Assembly (NCBI RefSeq): GCF_036250695.1
Contig: NZ_CP109427.1
Span: forward strand, 6,262,001-6,326,000
Source: Streptomyces sp. NBC_01497
GTDB lineage: Bacteria > Actinomycetota > Actinomycetes > Streptomycetales > Streptomycetaceae
DNA length: 64,000 nt
Direction of reading: 5' to 3'
Part shown: positions 47,089-54,527 of the stretch, one piece after another
Layout of the letters: every line of letters starts with the position of its first letter
Numbering within the stretch: position 1 is the first letter of the stretch
Position numbers and translations under genes: made by a program
Notes under the pieces: model-generated
Told to the model about the DNA's origin: nothing
Databases searched by the model: none
Seen by the model: the letters and a program-made list of their open reading frames with translations, nothing else

Positions 47089-47610
47089 TCAGGTGTCCAG
47101 TGACGCGGCCCAGTGGGTCAGTGCCGCGAAGTCGGCCTCCCGCAGGCCCCGCGCGGGACGTACCCGCAGCAGGAGCGCTGGCGCGTCGTGGTGCCGGGCC
47201 ACATGGGCGGTGTCCCGGTCCGTGATCATGTCGTCGACCCAGGCGAACGGCCGTCCGGCGGCCCACGCGAGCAGCGGCCTGGTCTTCCAGTACAGGCCGT
47301 CCGGGTCCCGGGCGAACAGGTGGGGCCACTCGATCACCGGCAGGCCGCCGGGGAGCCCCACGCGCGGCGCGATCAGGGTGTTCGCCTCGTGCATCCAGGT
47401 GGTGGCCCAGGCGAGTTCGAAGGGCAGCGCCAGCAACCGGGCGCCATGGTCCGCGTTGAGCCGGACGCGCAGGCCCCGGCGGTGCGGGCGGGAGCCGGGG
47501 GTCTGGCGGGCAAGCCAGTTCGCGGGGTGCAGGCGGTGGCTCGTGTAACCGCGCGGGCGGATCAGCCGCGCGGCGTACGGGTTGAGCGGGCTTATGCGGG
47601 CATGAGACAT
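47089..47610 (-). pseudogene. HAD-family protein, C-terminal part, separated from its N-terminus by the mobile element
   Basis: Codons from 47584 down to 47089 encode LNPYAARLIRPRGYTSHRL and the rest of a HAD-domain protein of the type grouped with Swiss-Army-Knife RNA-repair HAD domains (LPFELAWATTWMHEANTLIAP, LPVIEWPHLF, FAWVDDMITDRD). The catalytic DVDGP motif is missing here; it lies at 54527-54475. The first seven to eight codons of the present open frame, from an ATG at 47610, come from the mobile element end. AAAGGTG lies about 7 bp before that ATG, so a truncated, catalytically dead protein of 173 residues may still be made. Confidence 0.88.
47585..47591. repeat. Left attachment core of the element
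   Basis: AGCGGGC forms the junction between the HAD gene 3' part (to the left) and the element (to the right). The same seven bases lie at 54475-54481. It corresponds to the CCGCT bases of the GGC-CCG-CTC codons in the conserved DVDGPL motif. Confidence 0.85.
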
Positions 47611-47616
47611 GTCCGC
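47596..47616. promoter_or_regulatory. Dyad at the left end of the element (possible recombinase site)
   Basis: GCGGGCATG (47596-47604) and CATGTCCGC (47608-47616) form a near-perfect inverted repeat around AGA, with one mismatch. It is immediately inside the left core and is a plausible binding site for a recombinase arm. From 47617 to 47796 nothing else was recognised. Confidence 0.5.
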
Positions 47617-47796
47617 ACCTTTCGGTGGCTGGGCAGAGACGAAGACGGATGGCGCGGATCGGCCGCACCGTCAGTCATGGATGAGGCAACCGCCCGCGAG
47701 GTCGGCTGTCCTCGCTGAAGATCATGGGGGCGTGTAGTCGAGGCGCACCATCGAGGTCAGCAGGACTGTCAGACCCGGGTGCCATGCTGTGCGGTC

Positions 47797-48159
47797 ATGG
47801 ATCTCGAACAGTTCTGGAATCTGATCAATGGCGGATGTTCCGACGATGGCTTCGACTACTTCCGCGGTTGGCTGATCGCCCAAGGCCGTAAGGCTTTCGA
47901 GCAGGTCATTGCAGATGCCGACCAGCTCGCCGATCTACCGGTTGTCCGGGCTGCGGCAGCCGAGGGCATCGATCTGGAAAACGAGCAGACTCTGAACATC
48001 GCCTTCAACGCCTACAAAGCAGCAACCGGTGAAGAGCTTCCCGGAGACGCCTTCACGATCAACTATCCCGCTCTCGATCCTGCCTGGAGCTTCGACTTCG
48101 AGGACGACAGCAAGATCGCGGCCAGACTCCCGCGTATCGCGGCGCTCTACCTGGGCTGA
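47797..48159 (+). CDS. DUF4240-domain protein (element cargo)
   Basis: A 120-residue acidic protein matching the DUF4240 pattern: MDLEQFWNLINGG, FDYFRGWLIAQGRKAFEQVI, a conserved central AAAEGIDLENEQTLNIAFNAY within the second half. Function unknown; no catalytic or membrane features. The ATG at 47797 gives the normal domain start; an upstream in-frame start at 47779 is less likely. It is followed 14 bp later by the DUF4259 gene, so they form a pair. Small acidic proteins of this kind are sometimes immunity proteins, but no toxin is seen next to them. Confidence 0.78.
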   Translation: MDLEQFWNLINGGCSDDGFDYFRGWLIAQGRKAFEQVIADADQLADLPVVRAAAAEGIDLENEQTLNIAFNAYKAATGEELPGDAFTINYPALDPAWSFDFEDDSKIAARLPRIAALYLG

Positions 48160-48173
48160 GGAAGGAGATCATC

Positions 48174-48605
48174 ATGGGCACCTGGGACACCGGCCCCTTC
48201 GACAACGACGCGGCCGCAGACTTCGCCAATGCGCTCGACGACGCCGAGCCCGCGGAACGCGAGGCTTTGATCCGCGGTGTCCTCGCTCGCACCGTGGACG
48301 CCGCCGGCTACCTCAGGGAAGCGGAAGAGGCGGTGGCCGCCGCCGCTTTGATCGGGGCGCAGTGCCCAGGCGGCGAGCCCATCGACACTTCGTACGGCCC
48401 TGAATCCACCATGCCCGTATTTCCTGCCGACCTTCGGACGCTCGCTGACGACGCACTTGCCCGAATCATCACCGACGAGGCTGGGCCGGCCTCGAACTGG
48501 GTCGATCCGAGGGACTGGAAGCAATGGCAGACAATGCTCAACCGCCTTCGTGCTGTACTTGCCCCGGCCCCACCGTCCCTCTCGCTTTTCGATATCGAGC
48601 CATAG
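48174..48605 (+). CDS. DUF4259-domain protein (element cargo)
   Basis: A 143-residue acidic protein beginning MGTWDTGPFDNDAAADFANALDDAE, the hallmark start of DUF4259. A middle helical region (YLREAEEAVAAAALIGAQ) and the conserved SNWVDPRDWKQWQTMLNRLR follow. GAAGGAGA precedes the ATG. Function unknown. It is cotranscribed with the DUF4240 gene and converges on the recombination operon; the 74-bp gap to the DUF6262 gene shows no clear hairpin. Confidence 0.82.
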   Translation: MGTWDTGPFDNDAAADFANALDDAEPAEREALIRGVLARTVDAAGYLREAEEAVAAAALIGAQCPGGEPIDTSYGPESTMPVFPADLRTLADDALARIITDEAGPASNWVDPRDWKQWQTMLNRLRAVLAPAPPSLSLFDIEP

Positions 48606-48679
48606 AGCCTTACTGATCAAGAAGGTTGAGCGGAACCGTTACTCGCGTACACAGCCATCGCGGCTCTGGGTGATTCGGC

Positions 48680-49108
48680 TCATCGCGGAGGCACCATGCG
48701 CAGACCTCCTGTGGTGGTGTCGCTGAGCTCGCGTCTCAGCGACACGATCTCCTCGTGCTGGGCGGCCAGCCGGGACAGAGCCGTGGTTCGGAAATTCTCT
48801 GCCCCGGAGAGTTCTTGGCTCATGCGTGCGATCCGCCCCCGTAGCCGGGCGACTTCCTCCTTGAGTCGGTCAATTTGGACAATCCGGGGGTCCGGCTCGC
48901 CTCCGGTTTCCCGTACCCGGCCCAGTCGCTGCTCGAATTCCTGCTTGAGGTGTGGATAGGTGCGATACAGCGTCGCTCTGGGAACACGTGACAGAGTGCT
49001 CAGAGACTTGATGTCGCACCTCAGCCCTTCGGGGATGTCCCCGCCCAGGAGCTGTTCCATCGCGGCCCGGATTCGGGCCTCCACCTGGGCATGACGTTCA
49101 CTGGCCAC
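48680..49108 (-). CDS. DUF6262 / TnpC-like coiled-coil protein
   Basis: A 142-residue protein from the GTG at 49108, which follows GAGGGGACC at good distance (a GTG at 49123 is the alternative). The N-terminal half is a helix-turn-helix-like domain (DIKSLSTLSRVPRATLYRTYPHL), the C-terminal half a coiled coil with leucine/isoleucine heptads (IVQIDRLKEEVARLRGRIARM, LAAQHEEIVSLRRELSD). The arrangement fits the small accessory protein (TnpC/DUF6262) encoded after the recombinases in Tn554-like elements, which aids or directs transposition. Overlaps recombinase C by 11 bp. Confidence 0.8.
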   Translation of the reverse strand: MASERHAQVEARIRAAMEQLLGGDIPEGLRCDIKSLSTLSRVPRATLYRTYPHLKQEFEQRLGRVRETGGEPDPRIVQIDRLKEEVARLRGRIARMSQELSGAENFRTTALSRLAAQHEEIVSLRRELSDTTTGGLRMVPPR

Positions 49109-51275
49109 TGTCGGTCCCCTCACTGTTTAAGCCCGTCGATGCGGCATCGATGGCGTCTACGATCCGCATCGCTCGGTCGAAGGCGTCCTGAGCCCGCCGC
49201 CGCTCCAGCGGGGCCAGCCTCGGGTTGCCGAGGAACACTTCCCGAGTGTTCTTTGCCTGGTCCGCCCATGTCTGGCGATGCTGCGGATGGTGGGTAGCCT
49301 GCGGGCAGCGCGCAGAGTCGCACATGCCGATGAGCGGTTCCGTCGCGTCCGGAGTCCCAGCCAGTGTCAGACACAGAGCCTTTTTTGGGTCGGTGAACCA
49401 GCAGTAGTTTGCAGCCCCCACGTGCAGGGTCTTCGCCCTGGTCTTGAGTAGCCGTTCGAGCCGCCGGTCATCTGTGAGGACGGGAGGTTGAGTTTCGTGC
49501 GCGGCCAGTTCCTCATCCACCGCACGAAAGGCCGCGATGAGATCGCGTGCTCCCCGGCCGGACGGCAGCTCCCCCTGCCGGTAGCTTTCGTAAGCTGCGA
49601 CGGTCAGTCGGGTGTGCTCGGCTTCCTCTTCGGCTTGTACCTCGGCGAGGAACGCTGCTTGGTGCCCGCCTGGCCGAGCGGCGTACCCCTCTGTCGTAGC
49701 CACGGATACGTGCTTGAGATGCCACTTCGCAGCCAGGAGGCCATGCGGGCGCTGGGCGATGGACAGCGCGAGAGTACGGCGGAGAGCGCGCGGGTGCACC
49801 GGCCCATCAGGGATGGGAGCAAGGCCCAGACGCTGTCCGCAAGGTCCGTTGACCCAGTTCCGGAGAGCGGCATAGCGGTTGCGGGAGTTACTACCCGAAG
49901 AGAAGAGGAGTTCGCCGAGTTTGGTTCCAGTGACGGCCTCGGCTGCGGCCAGGGCCCGGTGAACCTCTTCGATCACCACCCAGGAGTCGGGTACCCCGCC
50001 GAAGTCCTCTCCCTTGATACGGCGGGAGTCCACCCAGAATCGGGGACTTTGGGAGCGGTTTTCGCGTCGACAGGCCCCGCCGGTGAGCTCGGCCAGCTCG
50101 GAGGCCCTCATACCGGAGAGCGCGGCGGTGAGGTAGAACGCGGCGCTGGCGATGACATAGACCATGGTCTCCAGTCCGAAGTGGTCCACAGGGATGGCGA
50201 ACGGAACGGCGGAGCGGTCATCGGCCCGGGGAACAGCGGTGGCATCCCGACACCATGGTGGCTCGGTTCCGCACTGCCTGATCCAGGCTTCCAGGGGAGG
50301 TCGGAGACGTTCCAGATCGCGCCTCTTGGAGAGCGAGAGTGCGGTGTCCCTCACGAACGAGTCGAAGGCGAACGGCAGCAGGGGGTCGTCTTGCTCCCAG
50401 CCCCCAGCGAGTCGCCGGGCGATGTATCCGGGTGTGGTGCGCGGGGCGGGAACTCCTGCCCTCATCTGCCGCTGTACTTCATCAATGACCTGCGAGTACT
50501 GATCGAGGCGCAGCGAGGATCTGATTCCTGCCCGTGAGGTGATGGCTTGTCGGGCTTGGGTGGCTTCGGCTGCGACGTGAGGCCCGACCACGTCGATGAG
50601 GTAGATCGAGTTGCAGAGCAGGGGCCGCAGGATGTCGTCGGGCACAGGGGCGGTCTGATTGACGTCGGCGCGTTCGTAGCCAGCGACTTCGGCGGCGCTG
50701 CGGTCACCCCAGGGACGGAAGCCGGGTGCGTAGCAGTCTGGAAGCAACGGCGAGTAGGCCATGAGAGCTTGGGCTGTCAGGACGTATCCCGCGACGGTGC
50801 CGGGAGTGACGGACCGTTCCGGGTCCGTGCGGCTGCGGGAGATGACGCTCAGGTAGGTGTCGCAATAGGGCTGCCTGACGAGCGAGAGGCTGCTGATCCC
50901 AGCCCCGGAGAGGTGGTTGAACCAGGCTGTCAGCCGATTGACCTCGTGACGAAGGGTGGGGAGTGCGAGGGGGGTTCGGTAGGCCTGTGGAAGAACAGCG
51001 ACGTCCGGGTGGGTGGGCAGGATGCGAGCCATCAGGTAGGCACGGGCGACGGTCCGCCAGCGAGGGTTGGCGATGGTGGTGAAGTCCAGGATCTTCTCGC
51101 TGCGGGGCCAAGACACAGGAGCGTCGGCCACCGCCGTCAGGTCCCAGATTTCTTGATCGAAGCAGGGGCCGCGCATACCGGGCTTGGTGCGGTATCCGGC
51201 GGTTTGGAGGATGTCCATCCCATGGAAGGGGTGCCGGTTCGAGTCGATTTGAGGCAGCGGAATGGCGCTGCTCAT
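49098..51275 (-). CDS. Tyrosine recombinase C (large, 725 residues)
   Basis: A large tyrosine recombinase-like protein. The catalytic part is in the second half: ALSGMRASELAELTGG with the first arginine near residue 395, HPRALRRTLALSIAQ with a His-x-x-Arg-like box, KWHLKHVSVATTEGYA with the final histidine/tyrosine. The long N-terminal half (about 380 residues) probably holds core-binding domains. After the catalytic domain a region with cysteines (ANYCWFTDPKKALCL, MCDSARCPQATHHPQH) may bind zinc. The ATG at 51275 overlaps the recombinase B stop (ATGA) and has GGAGGAGG upstream, making this start certain; the longer open frame is a shadow. Confidence 0.87.
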   Translation of the reverse strand: MSSAIPLPQIDSNRHPFHGMDILQTAGYRTKPGMRGPCFDQEIWDLTAVADAPVSWPRSEKILDFTTIANPRWRTVARAYLMARILPTHPDVAVLPQAYRTPLALPTLRHEVNRLTAWFNHLSGAGISSLSLVRQPYCDTYLSVISRSRTDPERSVTPGTVAGYVLTAQALMAYSPLLPDCYAPGFRPWGDRSAAEVAGYERADVNQTAPVPDDILRPLLCNSIYLIDVVGPHVAAEATQARQAITSRAGIRSSLRLDQYSQVIDEVQRQMRAGVPAPRTTPGYIARRLAGGWEQDDPLLPFAFDSFVRDTALSLSKRRDLERLRPPLEAWIRQCGTEPPWCRDATAVPRADDRSAVPFAIPVDHFGLETMVYVIASAAFYLTAALSGMRASELAELTGGACRRENRSQSPRFWVDSRRIKGEDFGGVPDSWVVIEEVHRALAAAEAVTGTKLGELLFSSGSNSRNRYAALRNWVNGPCGQRLGLAPIPDGPVHPRALRRTLALSIAQRPHGLLAAKWHLKHVSVATTEGYAARPGGHQAAFLAEVQAEEEAEHTRLTVAAYESYRQGELPSGRGARDLIAAFRAVDEELAAHETQPPVLTDDRRLERLLKTRAKTLHVGAANYCWFTDPKKALCLTLAGTPDATEPLIGMCDSARCPQATHHPQHRQTWADQAKNTREVFLGNPRLAPLERRRAQDAFDRAMRIVDAIDAASTGLNSEGTDSGQ

Positions 51276-52951
51276 GGAGCCTCCTCCGGGTGTAGGGGTG
51301 CGAAGGCGGTGTCGGTGGCGGCTTGGATGGCCGCAGGACTGAAGCGCGGCAATACGTCGGCATCGAGTCGATCGGCGTAAGGGCCGAAGACCGCCAGGAA
51401 CTGCGGCGCCGTCATATTCCTTGCCTGGTCCGAGAAGTACTTCTTGAGGCGGAGCAGGTTCGGTAGGTGACGTGGAGCGAAGACCGCGAGCGGGCACAGC
51501 AGACAGACCCAGGGACGGGCAGGACACAGCGTTCCGGCTGGGGCGTGAGGGCTGCTGTAAGGGTCGACACAGGAGGCCAGAAACACATCCTGTTCTCCGG
51601 CCAGCAGTCGCTTGACGGCGTCGGCGTCGAGCCCGTTCTGCCCGGCGAGGCGAGGGAAGTCGGCTACGAAGCGGGCTGCGTCCTGGTGAGTGACGACGAC
51701 CGGTGGCTCGGCTTTGCGTCGAATGTCTCGCTGGGCGTCTTCGATGACCCCCTCGATGGCGTCCACCTGCGCGGGGGTGTGGTGGGACAGGTAGTGGTCG
51801 CCTTCGACCGTCGGGGTGTGGTTCGGGTCGATGGTGGTGCGACCGGTCCAGGCGGATCGGTCACGACGGTGGTGGTAGGTGGCGCGGATCCGGCCGCTGT
51901 GCTGGACGAGTGGCTGTCCGTTGTCGTCGAGCAGGCCAATCTCCTGCGCCCACCGTGTTCGCCACCACGGGGTGCGTGGGGCCGAGGACAGGCCGTGTCT
52001 GCCCGAATAGTGAATCCACATGTCATCGGCGATGTCTGTGGCGTGCTCCCGGAGCAGCGCGGAGTGCTTGAGCCATTGGTCCAGGAGCCGGACCGCGGGC
52101 CCGTTGATGTTGAGGGATTCGCGGCCGGTGCGTCCCTTGAAGTAGGACAGCAGGGCGGTGGAAGGGCCTGTGCGGGTGAGGTTGGTGCAGGTGAGGGCAT
52201 CAATGCCGTCCGGAACGATGCCGGTCAGCATCGCCAGACGTAGGTTGTAGGCGAGTGCGACCGGGGCCGTGGGATGGAAGGCGTTACGGATTTCGGCAAT
52301 CGTCTTCTCTGCCGTTGTGGGAGCCGCCAGGATCATGGTGCGGATGGCCTTGGCTGTGAGGGGGCCGGTGCGGTGGACCATCCAGGCGAGGTTGTCGAAG
52401 GTGATGCCGTGCGTCGCTGGGTCGGCTCCTCGGCCGGCGGCTTCCAGGATCTTGCGGTGGTCCCGCCAGGCGGTGGTGATGGTGGCGTTGGTGGCCTCAT
52501 CGAGGCGCCGCCATTCGGCTTCGCTGTAGGGCCGGTTGGGAGTGGAGTCGCGCATCCGGTTGACGGACCGCCCATCGAGGTGGGCTTGGATGACGGCGTG
52601 GAGTTGGCCGCCGTTCGTGCGGTAGCCGGTCAGCATGATCCGGCTGTGCCGTTCGAAGGTGAACCCGGATGCAAGCCAGTACTGGGTGACCTGGGCGGGG
52701 GTGAGGCCGCTGAGACTGCCCCTGAAGTCGGCACCGCTCAAGTGCCGGGCGAAGTGGCGCGCGCAGCGGACGGCATGCCTGGCCTCGCGGTAAGTACGGA
52801 TCGGCCCGACGGGGTGGGTCGCGGAGATGAGCCCCTGGGCGAGATCGGCGGCGAGGACGGCATCGGGGAGCTCGTGGAGGGTGCCGAGGTACGGGCGCTG
52901 CCCAGGAAGAACGAAGTGGACGGCGAGAGGATGGCGGAGTTCAGCGGGCAT
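51272..52951 (-). CDS. Tyrosine recombinase-like protein B (559 residues)
   Basis: The middle recombinase. It is the most divergent: NLRLAMLTGIVPDGIDAL stands where the first arginine box is expected, and SGRIRATYHHRRDRS plus the following HTPTVEGDHYLSH may hold the later active-site residues. A C-terminal cysteine cluster (CVDPYSSPHAPAGTLCPARPWVCLLC within one stretch) suggests a zinc-binding module. Because not all catalytic residues are clear, it may be a structural partner rather than a fully active enzyme, as proposed for some trio members. Its ATG overlaps recombinase A by 11 bp, with AGGA at 6 bp spacing. Confidence 0.78.
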   Translation of the reverse strand: MPAELRHPLAVHFVLPGQRPYLGTLHELPDAVLAADLAQGLISATHPVGPIRTYREARHAVRCARHFARHLSGADFRGSLSGLTPAQVTQYWLASGFTFERHSRIMLTGYRTNGGQLHAVIQAHLDGRSVNRMRDSTPNRPYSEAEWRRLDEATNATITTAWRDHRKILEAAGRGADPATHGITFDNLAWMVHRTGPLTAKAIRTMILAAPTTAEKTIAEIRNAFHPTAPVALAYNLRLAMLTGIVPDGIDALTCTNLTRTGPSTALLSYFKGRTGRESLNINGPAVRLLDQWLKHSALLREHATDIADDMWIHYSGRHGLSSAPRTPWWRTRWAQEIGLLDDNGQPLVQHSGRIRATYHHRRDRSAWTGRTTIDPNHTPTVEGDHYLSHHTPAQVDAIEGVIEDAQRDIRRKAEPPVVVTHQDAARFVADFPRLAGQNGLDADAVKRLLAGEQDVFLASCVDPYSSPHAPAGTLCPARPWVCLLCPLAVFAPRHLPNLLRLKKYFSDQARNMTAPQFLAVFGPYADRLDADVLPRFSPAAIQAATDTAFAPLHPEEAP

Positions 52952-54431
52952 CGCTGTCCTGGAATTCGGTGGCGGCCTCGATCTGTTCGCACGGGGTGGG
53001 GGAGGTTTCCTCGTATGCCTCGCGGAAGATCCGTTGCGTGTCCAGCAAGTGGAGGTATGCCTGAGTGGTGGTGACGCTGGCGTGTCCCATCAGGTCCCGC
53101 AGAACCAGCAGTGGATCGGCCTTGGTGAGGTAGAGGGCCATGGCGTTGTCGCCGTCGGTGTCCACCACGAGCTGAGCGGCCCGCTGGTAGTAGCCCCGTA
53201 CCAGCCGCTCCAGGGTGGTCATGGCAAAGGTGTGCCGGGTCATGTGGGGGGAGACGTGCGGGAACGCAGGATCGAACCGGTCGCGGACGCGGGCTGAGGT
53301 GCGTCGCAACACAGTGGCCCAGTCCACGAAGGGGGAGCCGTCCGACTGCACGGCGAGCAAGGCGCTACCTCCGCCGGGGGCGACGAGACGGCGTCGTTCG
53401 GCGGGGGTGAGGACGTGCCACCGCCGGTACGTGCCGTTGATGCGGGCACCCGCAAAAGTGGGCTCTTCGACGTACAGAGGATCTCCGGGCAGCCAGCGGG
53501 AGGCATCAGTGGAGGCGGCGCGCTCCAGCGACACATAGTCGTGGACACCGGCCAAAGCCTCGTAGGTGATCCACGTCTGCCGTCCCTTGCTGCCCTTTGC
53601 CGTAGGCGGAGCGAGTAGCAGAGGGATCGGTACAGGGGTGTGTTGCCGGGGTAGCGGTGGGAGCTCCCACACGGTCAGGTGGGACAGCTCGCGCAGCCGT
53701 AGTCCCGTAGAGAGAGCCAGGGCGACTCCAGCCGCGTTCCGACCGGTTTCCCGGCCCCGGAAGCTGCGGTCTGGCTCACCATCGGGATAGTTGCCGGCCA
53801 AGGCGTTCATCAGCAGCTCGGCGTAGGGGCGCTCCAGGTACTTGCGGGTGGCGTGGCGCTTGGCGCCTCGTACAGTCGCCAGATTGCGTGCCGACTGCAC
53901 TCGCACGCCATCGGGCCGCCGGTACGAGCCTTCGGCGTAGCTGAACGGAACATCGGTGCAGTACCCGTTACCCACGGACCACTCGTAGAAGGCGGCGATC
54001 GTCTTGACCGCCAAGTTCCAGCTCGTCCCCTCCAGCCGAGCCTCCAAGGGCCCCGACAGCCGGTGTTCGGCGTAGGCGGACAGTGCACCACGGAGCCGGA
54101 ACTGGTCGGCGAACACGTCGACGCTGTGCTCGGTCAGGAACTCGGACCAAGACTTGAGCTGCTGGGCATAGGTCCGCCAAGTGTTCGGGCTGGGGGCTCC
54201 GGTGACGGGTAACTCCTGGAGCCACCGGTTCATCGCCACAGTGGGTCGAGGGCCGTTCTCGTCTTCGAAGCGGAGGTCTTCATCGATGAGGACGGGCATC
54301 CCGTCTCGGATGAGGGGGCGCGATAGAAGGCCCCAGTTCTTCCAGCCAGTGGGGGAGAAGGAGTGCAGGATCACGCCCGGCACGTTATGTGAGACGTAGT
54401 GGAGTGCAAGCGATAACGGTGGGATTGTCAC
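52941..54431 (-). CDS. Tyrosine recombinase A (496 residues)
   Basis: A canonical phage-integrase-fold recombinase. The N-terminal SAM-like core-binding domain (residues about 60-165: TWRTYAQQLKSWSEFLTEH) precedes the catalytic domain: LSTGLRLRELSHL with the first arginine near residue 245, SPHMTRHTFAMTTLERL with His-x-x-Arg near 397, and LMGHASVTTTQAYLHLL with histidine at about 450 and nucleophilic tyrosine near 459. First gene of the overlapping recombination operon. A GTG at 54431 is the likely start; internal GTGs are possible. The sixth codon is TTA, rare in Streptomyces and read by the bldA tRNA. Confidence 0.92.
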   Translation of the reverse strand: MTIPPLSLALHYVSHNVPGVILHSFSPTGWKNWGLLSRPLIRDGMPVLIDEDLRFEDENGPRPTVAMNRWLQELPVTGAPSPNTWRTYAQQLKSWSEFLTEHSVDVFADQFRLRGALSAYAEHRLSGPLEARLEGTSWNLAVKTIAAFYEWSVGNGYCTDVPFSYAEGSYRRPDGVRVQSARNLATVRGAKRHATRKYLERPYAELLMNALAGNYPDGEPDRSFRGRETGRNAAGVALALSTGLRLRELSHLTVWELPPLPRQHTPVPIPLLLAPPTAKGSKGRQTWITYEALAGVHDYVSLERAASTDASRWLPGDPLYVEEPTFAGARINGTYRRWHVLTPAERRRLVAPGGGSALLAVQSDGSPFVDWATVLRRTSARVRDRFDPAFPHVSPHMTRHTFAMTTLERLVRGYYQRAAQLVVDTDGDNAMALYLTKADPLLVLRDLMGHASVTTTQAYLHLLDTQRIFREAYEETSPTPCEQIEAATEFQDSDAR

Positions 54432-54458
54432 CCTTGCGAGTGAGACAGCGAGACACGC

Positions 54459-54527
54459 TCAAACCGCAAAGCTAAGCGGGCCGTCGACATCGAGGAGCAG
54501 CAACGGGCGGTGCGGGAGGTCCGTCAT
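54459..54527 (-). pseudogene. HAD-family protein, N-terminal part, cut by the mobile element
   Basis: From the ATG at 54527 this frame encodes MTDLPHRPLLLLDVDGPL, the start of a HAD phosphatase-fold protein with the nucleophile motif DVDGP. At 54474 it crosses into the element and reads five more residues (SFAV and stop). The continuation NPYAARL is at 47584. The junction lies inside the codon after CCG, so the break is exactly in the conserved active-site loop. Confidence 0.88.
54475..54481. repeat. Right attachment core of the element
   Basis: AGCGGGC at the right junction, identical to the left core at 47585-47591. Bases 54482 onward belong to the host HAD gene. The element sequence just inside (GAGACAGCGAGACACGCTC near 54441-54460) has an AGCG-AGACA-CGCT dyad. 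Confidence 0.85.

Follow-up and report, generated by a model that had tools for sequence, protein, structure and literature searches.

RIT elements consist of three recombinase genes only. These genes are known as ritA, ritB and ritC (PMC3414803). In the genomic islands termed GInts, as described in PMC5385486, the ginABCD genes lie at one end, the cargo begins at the ginD stop codon, the flanking direct repeats are short and imperfect (10–17 nt), and GinC is the subunit that lacks the first Arg of the RHRHY set. GInts also have a short AT-rich 3' end and excise as circles, which restores attB. GInt has been named as a Tn6571-family transposon (PMC10121019), and ginABCD elements have been placed in the Tn554 family (PMC8865565). 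Here we describe an element that splits a HAD-like gene in a 64,000-nucleotide stretch of the Streptomyces sp. NBC_01497 genome (contig NZ_CP109427.1, positions 6,262,001 to 6,326,000; hereafter the window). We are confident that this element is a GInt-type (Tn554-family, ginABCD) genomic island inserted in the DVDGP/LNP codons, the slash in this and other motifs marking the junction. Because relatives of the island split quite different enzymes in the same way, it looks as if the codons of active sites commonly serve as landing sites.

A sequence-only reading had joined the two parts of the HAD gene (54527–54475, which on the minus strand translates as MTDLPHRPLLLLDVDGP, and 47584–47089) through a single copy of AGCGGGC; this was reproduced, removal of 6,890 bp leaving 549 nt, or 182 codons plus stop. 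The AGCGGGC repeat is not significant by itself, since it occurs 37 times on the two strands of the 64-kb window; that the split is beyond chance follows from comparison with intact homologues and orthologues without the insert. When 61 genomes, including that of the window, were searched with the joined protein, 45 gave a match, the window's genome among them. In relative G007 an intact, insert-free orthologue adjoins the common upstream aminotransferase gene (85.2% over 1,152 bp), in G001 such an orthologue has the same upstream gene (88.5% over 174 bp, limited by the contig end), and in G012 an insert-free orthologue has the downstream region in common (72.1% over 1,515 bp). The empty site for which the sequence-only reading had proposed to search relatives is thus present, DVDGPLNP being uninterrupted in all three, each with one flanking neighbour gene in common. 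The closest intact homologue of the joined protein is in G023 (78%), and the window's own genome also carries an intact HAD paralogue (53%) in which the core bases differ. In the genomes searched, no HAD gene split in the absence of recombinases was found, matches starting at query residue 16 or 17 (G000, G012, G149 and G355) all having gin genes within ~11 kb on the same contig; nor was there an intact homologue that mismatched the join, the motif being continuous in 47. The claim that the attachment sites could be defined exactly without other genomes held for the location of both ends, but the window sequence alone places the cut point only to within the 7-bp core, and comparison was needed.

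Conservation was assessed in 47 of the 58 HAD match loci, namely those starting by residue 10, ending past residue 169 and showing >45% identity. Residues 13–20 (DVDGPLNP) rank first of 167 eight-residue windows by mean conservation, D13, G16 and P20 being present in 47/47 and D15 in 46/47. From what is established about HAD motif I, the catalytic Asp presumably sits in DVDGP. The motif had been described as conserved and catalytic; the conservation stands, and the catalytic status is read from the motif itself, since the HAD match in Pfam is weak (the intact homologue L004 scores 23.1 bits against PF18143, cut-off 27.5). DVDGPLNP is the most conserved motif of the HAD protein and probably one with a catalytic role.

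The same codons are interrupted in other HAD lineages. Streptomyces griseoruber DSM 40281 (GinB 91%) carries an element at DVDGP/LNP in another HAD gene, the C-half of which is 55% identical to that of the window, and a third HAD type is interrupted at the same codons in G012 (GinB 69%; HAD 52% versus the window's) and in Streptomyces sp. ISL-87. The flanks in G012 and ISL-87 are collinear, so that these two may represent one insertion; a decayed copy lies in this HAD type in G355 too, only the C-half being found. At both ends the core follows the host third base, reading GCCCGCT in the window, G012 and ISL-87 and GGCCGCT in S. griseoruber. The proposals that a recombinase element had inserted into the DVDGP/LNP codons and that HAD genes of other strains should be checked for the same insertion were therefore well founded, and the conserved-motif reading survives the test that the sequence-only reading had set, because an empty site exists and two further HAD lineages are interrupted by related elements at these codons.

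The element comprises four overlapping gin genes on the minus strand and two plus-strand cargo genes beyond them (Table 1). Its GC content is 65.5% (62.8% in the whole cargo part), against 74–76% in the 5-kb flanks, and its termini form imperfect inverted repeats around the core (GCTTAG/GCTTAT inward). The start of ginA lies ~45 bp inside the junction, in the direction of the HAD gene, both in the window and in S. griseoruber (~380 bp or more in G012), and because of this proximity and orientation host transcription may drive ginA. The cargo of the window (47779–48605) is a DUF4240 plus DUF4259 gene pair. At the cargo end (47584–47610) the HAD remainder gains a start codon in frame from the element (MSHARIS-PLNPY), closely preceded by AAAGGTG, and the frame from element into HAD remainder is kept in L064 (the S. 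griseoruber locus) and L065.

Table 1. Coordinates of the split HAD-like gene and of the inserted element within the window
Feature	Position	Strand	Basis
HAD-like gene, first 53 nt, ending in DVDGP(L) codons	54475..54527	-	continuous in 47 homologues
HAD-like gene remainder, LNPYAARL to stop, 496 nt	47089..47584	-	joins first 53 nt
Core repeat AGCGGGC, ginA end	54475..54481	+	
Core repeat AGCGGGC, cargo end	47585..47591	+	
Inserted element, 6,890 bp, ends within 7-bp core	47585..54474	.	ends match relatives in other sites
ginA-end terminus TAGCTTTGCGGTTTGAGCGTGTCTC (minus strand)	54450..54474	-	near-identical in L064, L066-L068 despite different flanks
Cargo-end terminus GGACATGTCTCATGCCCGCATAA (minus strand)	47592..47614	-	near-identical in L064, L065, L112, L121
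ginA-like tyrosine recombinase, 496 aa	52941..54431	-	PF00589 + PF02899
ginB-like protein, 559 aa, tyrosine-recombinase-like without first catalytic Arg	51272..52951	-	model, conserved residues
ginC-like protein, 725 aa	49098..51275	-	conserved residues, profile match
ginD-like small protein, 147 aa	48680..49123	-	operon position; profile match to pSinA fourth gene
Cargo DUF4240 protein	47779..48159	+	PF14024, E 5.8e-21
Cargo DUF4259 protein	48174..48605	+	PF14078, E 3.2e-25

The assignment to the GInts was made via plasmid operons, the type GInts of P. stutzeri and P. syringae being compared by description. Actinomycete profiles built from 67 GinA, 73 GinB, 59 GinC and 66 GinD sequences matched the same-position proteins of a Klebsiella plasmid operon (A 99.8, B 99.6, C 99.9 and D 22.8% probability), of the Sinorhizobium plasmid pSinA (A 100, B 99.6, C 100 and D 93.5%) and of a P. 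aeruginosa plasmid (A 98.9, B 97.4 and C 96.3%), and mismatched pairings reached at most 19%. In GinA, R245, H396, R399, H450 and Y459 are each present in 67/67 aligned sequences, giving the full R-H-R-H-Y set; GinB has H378 and Y387 in 73/73 and lacks the first Arg; GinC, in 29 aligned sequences, has invariant R390 (SGMR) and Y531 (EGY), and keeps Arg, Arg, His and Tyr with the box-II His replaced by Arg. For an AlphaFold model of GinB (pLDDT 79, pTM 0.57), XerH and Cre were matched at a probability of 1.00, the best E being 2.5e-4. At E ≤ 0.001, neither Pfam nor NCBIfam yielded a match for GinB, GinC or GinD, and a phage collection yielded none for GinB at E ≤ 1e-5. In the order A-B-C-D, the operon thus appears to encode three tyrosine recombinases followed by a small protein, GinC being so placed by its catalytic residues and profile match. 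The DNA of the window and S. griseoruber elements is 90–95% identical up to the last base of the ginD stop codon, beyond which flanks and cargo differ, and by this comparison the cargo begins at that codon, as in GInts.

Several points weigh against this assignment. The TM-score of the GinB model against XerH and Cre is only ~0.3 by query length; for the GinC model nothing in the PDB reaches E ≤ 0.001, the best-ranked integrase (3nkh, probability 0.97, E 0.12) standing second in the list below an unrelated transporter; the match of GinD to the fourth Klebsiella protein is weak; and the element is known here from its genes and junctions, excision and a circle being presumed. As a separate observation, ginC of the S. 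griseoruber element (L064, 9273–14174) is broken by an insert of ~4.9 kb that encodes two proteins, one integrase-like (367 aa) and one of 813 aa; the break falls within a codon or two past the invariant Tyr (TTEGYA/), so that another element lies in a catalytic motif.

GinB matches at E ≤ 0.001, many of them weak, occur in 92 of 392 genomes of the genus, and a scan of species genomes found 147 relatives, of which 80 loci, all Actinomycetota by their titles, were kept. Target labels were assigned by hand, several by motif only, and some junctions were set by eye; the target motifs (YA/RVS, box II, DDD, GGEPT and IDFE) are read in their usual sense. Streptomyces violaceusniger Tu 4113 (G079) has three copies (99.4–99.8%) in three serine-recombinase genes or remnants, at the YA/RVS codons, and an element of a Microbacterium plasmid lies likewise. 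One S. violaceusniger locus (L068) has unequal cores (CGAGCG/CGCGCG), as expected from a short staggered exchange. In a pattern search, the left junction ended in R-[HRK] of tyrosine-recombinase box II at 24 of 82 loci, 20 of which have at least 120 residues and form 14 clusters at 60% identity. Eleven of 14 scanned halves match PF00589 (five below the Pfam cut-off), the match ending at profile position 134 in ten and 133 in one; the halves at L141, L146 and L192 had no PF00589 match. Right flanks were read at L146, L153, L156 and L179. Further targets, read at the left junction only, are a GT2 ADDD motif (L140, PF00535 match ending at position 88; L139 by motif), a radical SAM GGEPT motif (L073, PF04055 match starting at 53, below cut-off), an APH-like kinase IDFER motif (L187, PF01636 match ending at 196) and DUF4244 (L131).

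A maximum-likelihood GinB tree was built from 51 of the 52 labelled rows, L112 with its broken GinB being left out; loci at contig ends, those without a readable junction and near-identical copies are unlabelled. The 18 target classes require 17 changes on this tree, the minimum possible, against a mean of 31.9 after shuffling (0/200 as low), a test resting on eight classes because the other ten are single-row. The HAD rows form one group (100/100), as do HAD and serine-recombinase rows jointly (100/100), the serine-recombinase group alone reaching only 76/50, and 18 tyrosine-recombinase rows group with L182 (99/97). DUF4244 is scattered, with three changes. For the most part, then, target class follows the GinB tree, with L182 and L170 as exceptions.

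Our broader proposal, to which we give an even chance, is that a large, mainly actinomycete GInt branch has adopted active-site codons as attachment sites, most clades being dedicated to one catalytic motif (HAD DVDGP/LNP, serine recombinase YA/RVS, tyrosine recombinase HxxR-H/, GT2 DDD, radical SAM GGEPT or kinase IDFE) and clades having switched between unrelated enzyme families: a homing strategy from tyrosine recombinases. If this is true, rivals would also be disarmed, since two favourite targets are the recombinases of other mobile elements. A different explanation, which we consider unlikely but must take seriously, is that the element reads a DNA string and the motif is coincidental, conserved codons being hit because conserved DNA persists as a site. 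Some loci fit this explanation and count against our own: L182 (the same place as L079) keeps the core GGCAC and has a GinB of the tyrosine-recombinase clade, with no integrase motif at the target; L170 belongs to the W-x-Q-x-D clade, yet its target lacks this motif; and the targets at L129, L159 and L161 have no recognizable active site. The junction is, moreover, unreadable at several loci. Against coincidence, in each of three target classes (HAD, serine recombinase and tyrosine recombinase) genes that have otherwise diverged are repeatedly entered at identical codons, although such recurrence bears on selection and does not separate 'catalytic' from 'conserved'. L182/L079 is a possible secondary site.

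A programmed gene split of the developmental-excision type, in which the island would leave in some cells and the HAD gene be restored, is very improbable. The join does restore the frame exactly and ginABCD are open, but the orthologue in relatives is empty and other HAD genes harbour related elements, so the pairing of element and HAD gene is not fixed. We give slightly less credence still to a RIT element, which would contain just the three recombinases. It would fit the arrangement of the three recombinase-like genes, adjacent and overlapping on the same strand, and the sequence-only reading had spoken of a 'recombinase trio'; a recombinase element it is, but RIT was rejected because a fourth, GinD-like gene follows ginC, the four gin genes occurring at each of 22 loci (counting the window and three copies from a single genome; some copies are broken), and because GinA, GinB and GinC each pair with their own counterpart, protein 1, 2 or 3, in GInt-like operons. 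Tn554 proper (tnpA and tnpB plus tnpC) was likewise set aside, there being three large recombinase-like genes here. An assembly chimaera, for which no support was found, has a negligible probability, as the contig around the window is 8.55 Mb long, in a genome of two contigs, and both termini recur in independent genomes.

We hypothesize, by analogy with the GInt experiments described in PMC5385486, that the three tyrosine-recombinase-like proteins and their small GinD-like partner recombine two sites, attI of a circular form (...GCATAA-GCCCGCT-TAGC...) and attB in the chromosome. The attB core, GSCCGCT, corresponds to codons 16–18 (G-P-L) of DVDGPLNP. Exchange across the ~6–7 bp core would split the gene and leave a core copy at each end, presumably with loss of HAD function; a circular intermediate, excision, integration and a target-reading subunit are all presumed in this scheme. 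The likely advantage is that of homing introns and inteins: where an enzyme family cannot change its codons, an almost identical DNA site is on offer across paralogues, species and genera.

Among the matches listed in a search of the titles and abstract starts of the open-access literature, with few terms aimed at the question, we found no report of HAD or active-site targeting by such elements. The proposal yields a testable rule, namely that attachment sites can be predicted from protein motifs, and it offers a natural series of recombinases with targets switched between unrelated genes. New candidates for integration tools in actinomycetes of high GC content would follow as well. A further suggestion is that the recombinase genes of mobile elements come under attack from other such elements at catalytic codons.

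Other observations concern the relatives. Rhodococcus koreensis has three copies (98.6–99.3%), two of which also have common flanks; multicopy elements of this kind, those of S. violaceusniger included, count in favour of the GInt-type assignment. The interrupted gene at L141 ends in TRQFRR, like GinC box II, and this element may sit in the ginC of another GInt. Loci of six Mycobacterium genomes (L146–L151) agree in their junction and in the lengths of their gin genes, and a very recent transfer is suggested by the 100% identity of L146 to L149 across 15,083 bp. On Rhizorhabdus dicambivorans plasmid p1 (L201; 4253–4999 and 14299–14568) an ArdC-like zincin gene is apparently split near EELVA/EL by a distant ginABC element with arsenic-resistance cargo; pSinA (L200) has a similar operon and mercury genes.

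The element resembles GInts and the Tn6571 and Tn6488 subfamilies of the Tn554 family in its four-gene operon at one end, cargo from the ginD stop codon, site-specific insertion and short direct repeats, and GInts also in the one-to-one correspondence of GinA–C with GInt-like operon proteins. It represents an actinomycete branch, the words Streptomyces and Actinobacteria being absent from the main text of PMC5385486. Two differences tell against the likeness: the repeat here is an exact 7 bp rather than 10–17 nt and imperfect, and the first Arg is lost from GinB rather than, as stated in PMC5385486, from GinC. The target here lies within an active-site motif, whereas GInt sites described in PMC5385486 are at gene ends; the present branch enters enzyme genes at the codons that can change least, and disrupts them. 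Tn554 and the actinobacterial Tn554-like elements described in PMC3414803 likewise have several recombinases, a small TnpC-like protein and a precise target, but two recombinases where there are three here; they are set apart by description. The strand-biased circularizing elements (SEs) of PMC10214605 share a left-end operon with several recombinase-fold proteins and a small one; compared by description, they differ in having been described from Gammaproteobacteria and in their genes, intA-tfp-intB-srap. RIT elements, also set apart by description, share the three adjacent tyrosine-recombinase-like genes, whereas a fourth gene and cargo are present here. Inteins and homing introns likewise occupy the codons that vary least in important proteins, but they are spliced out and the protein is kept, whereas here the gene is broken.

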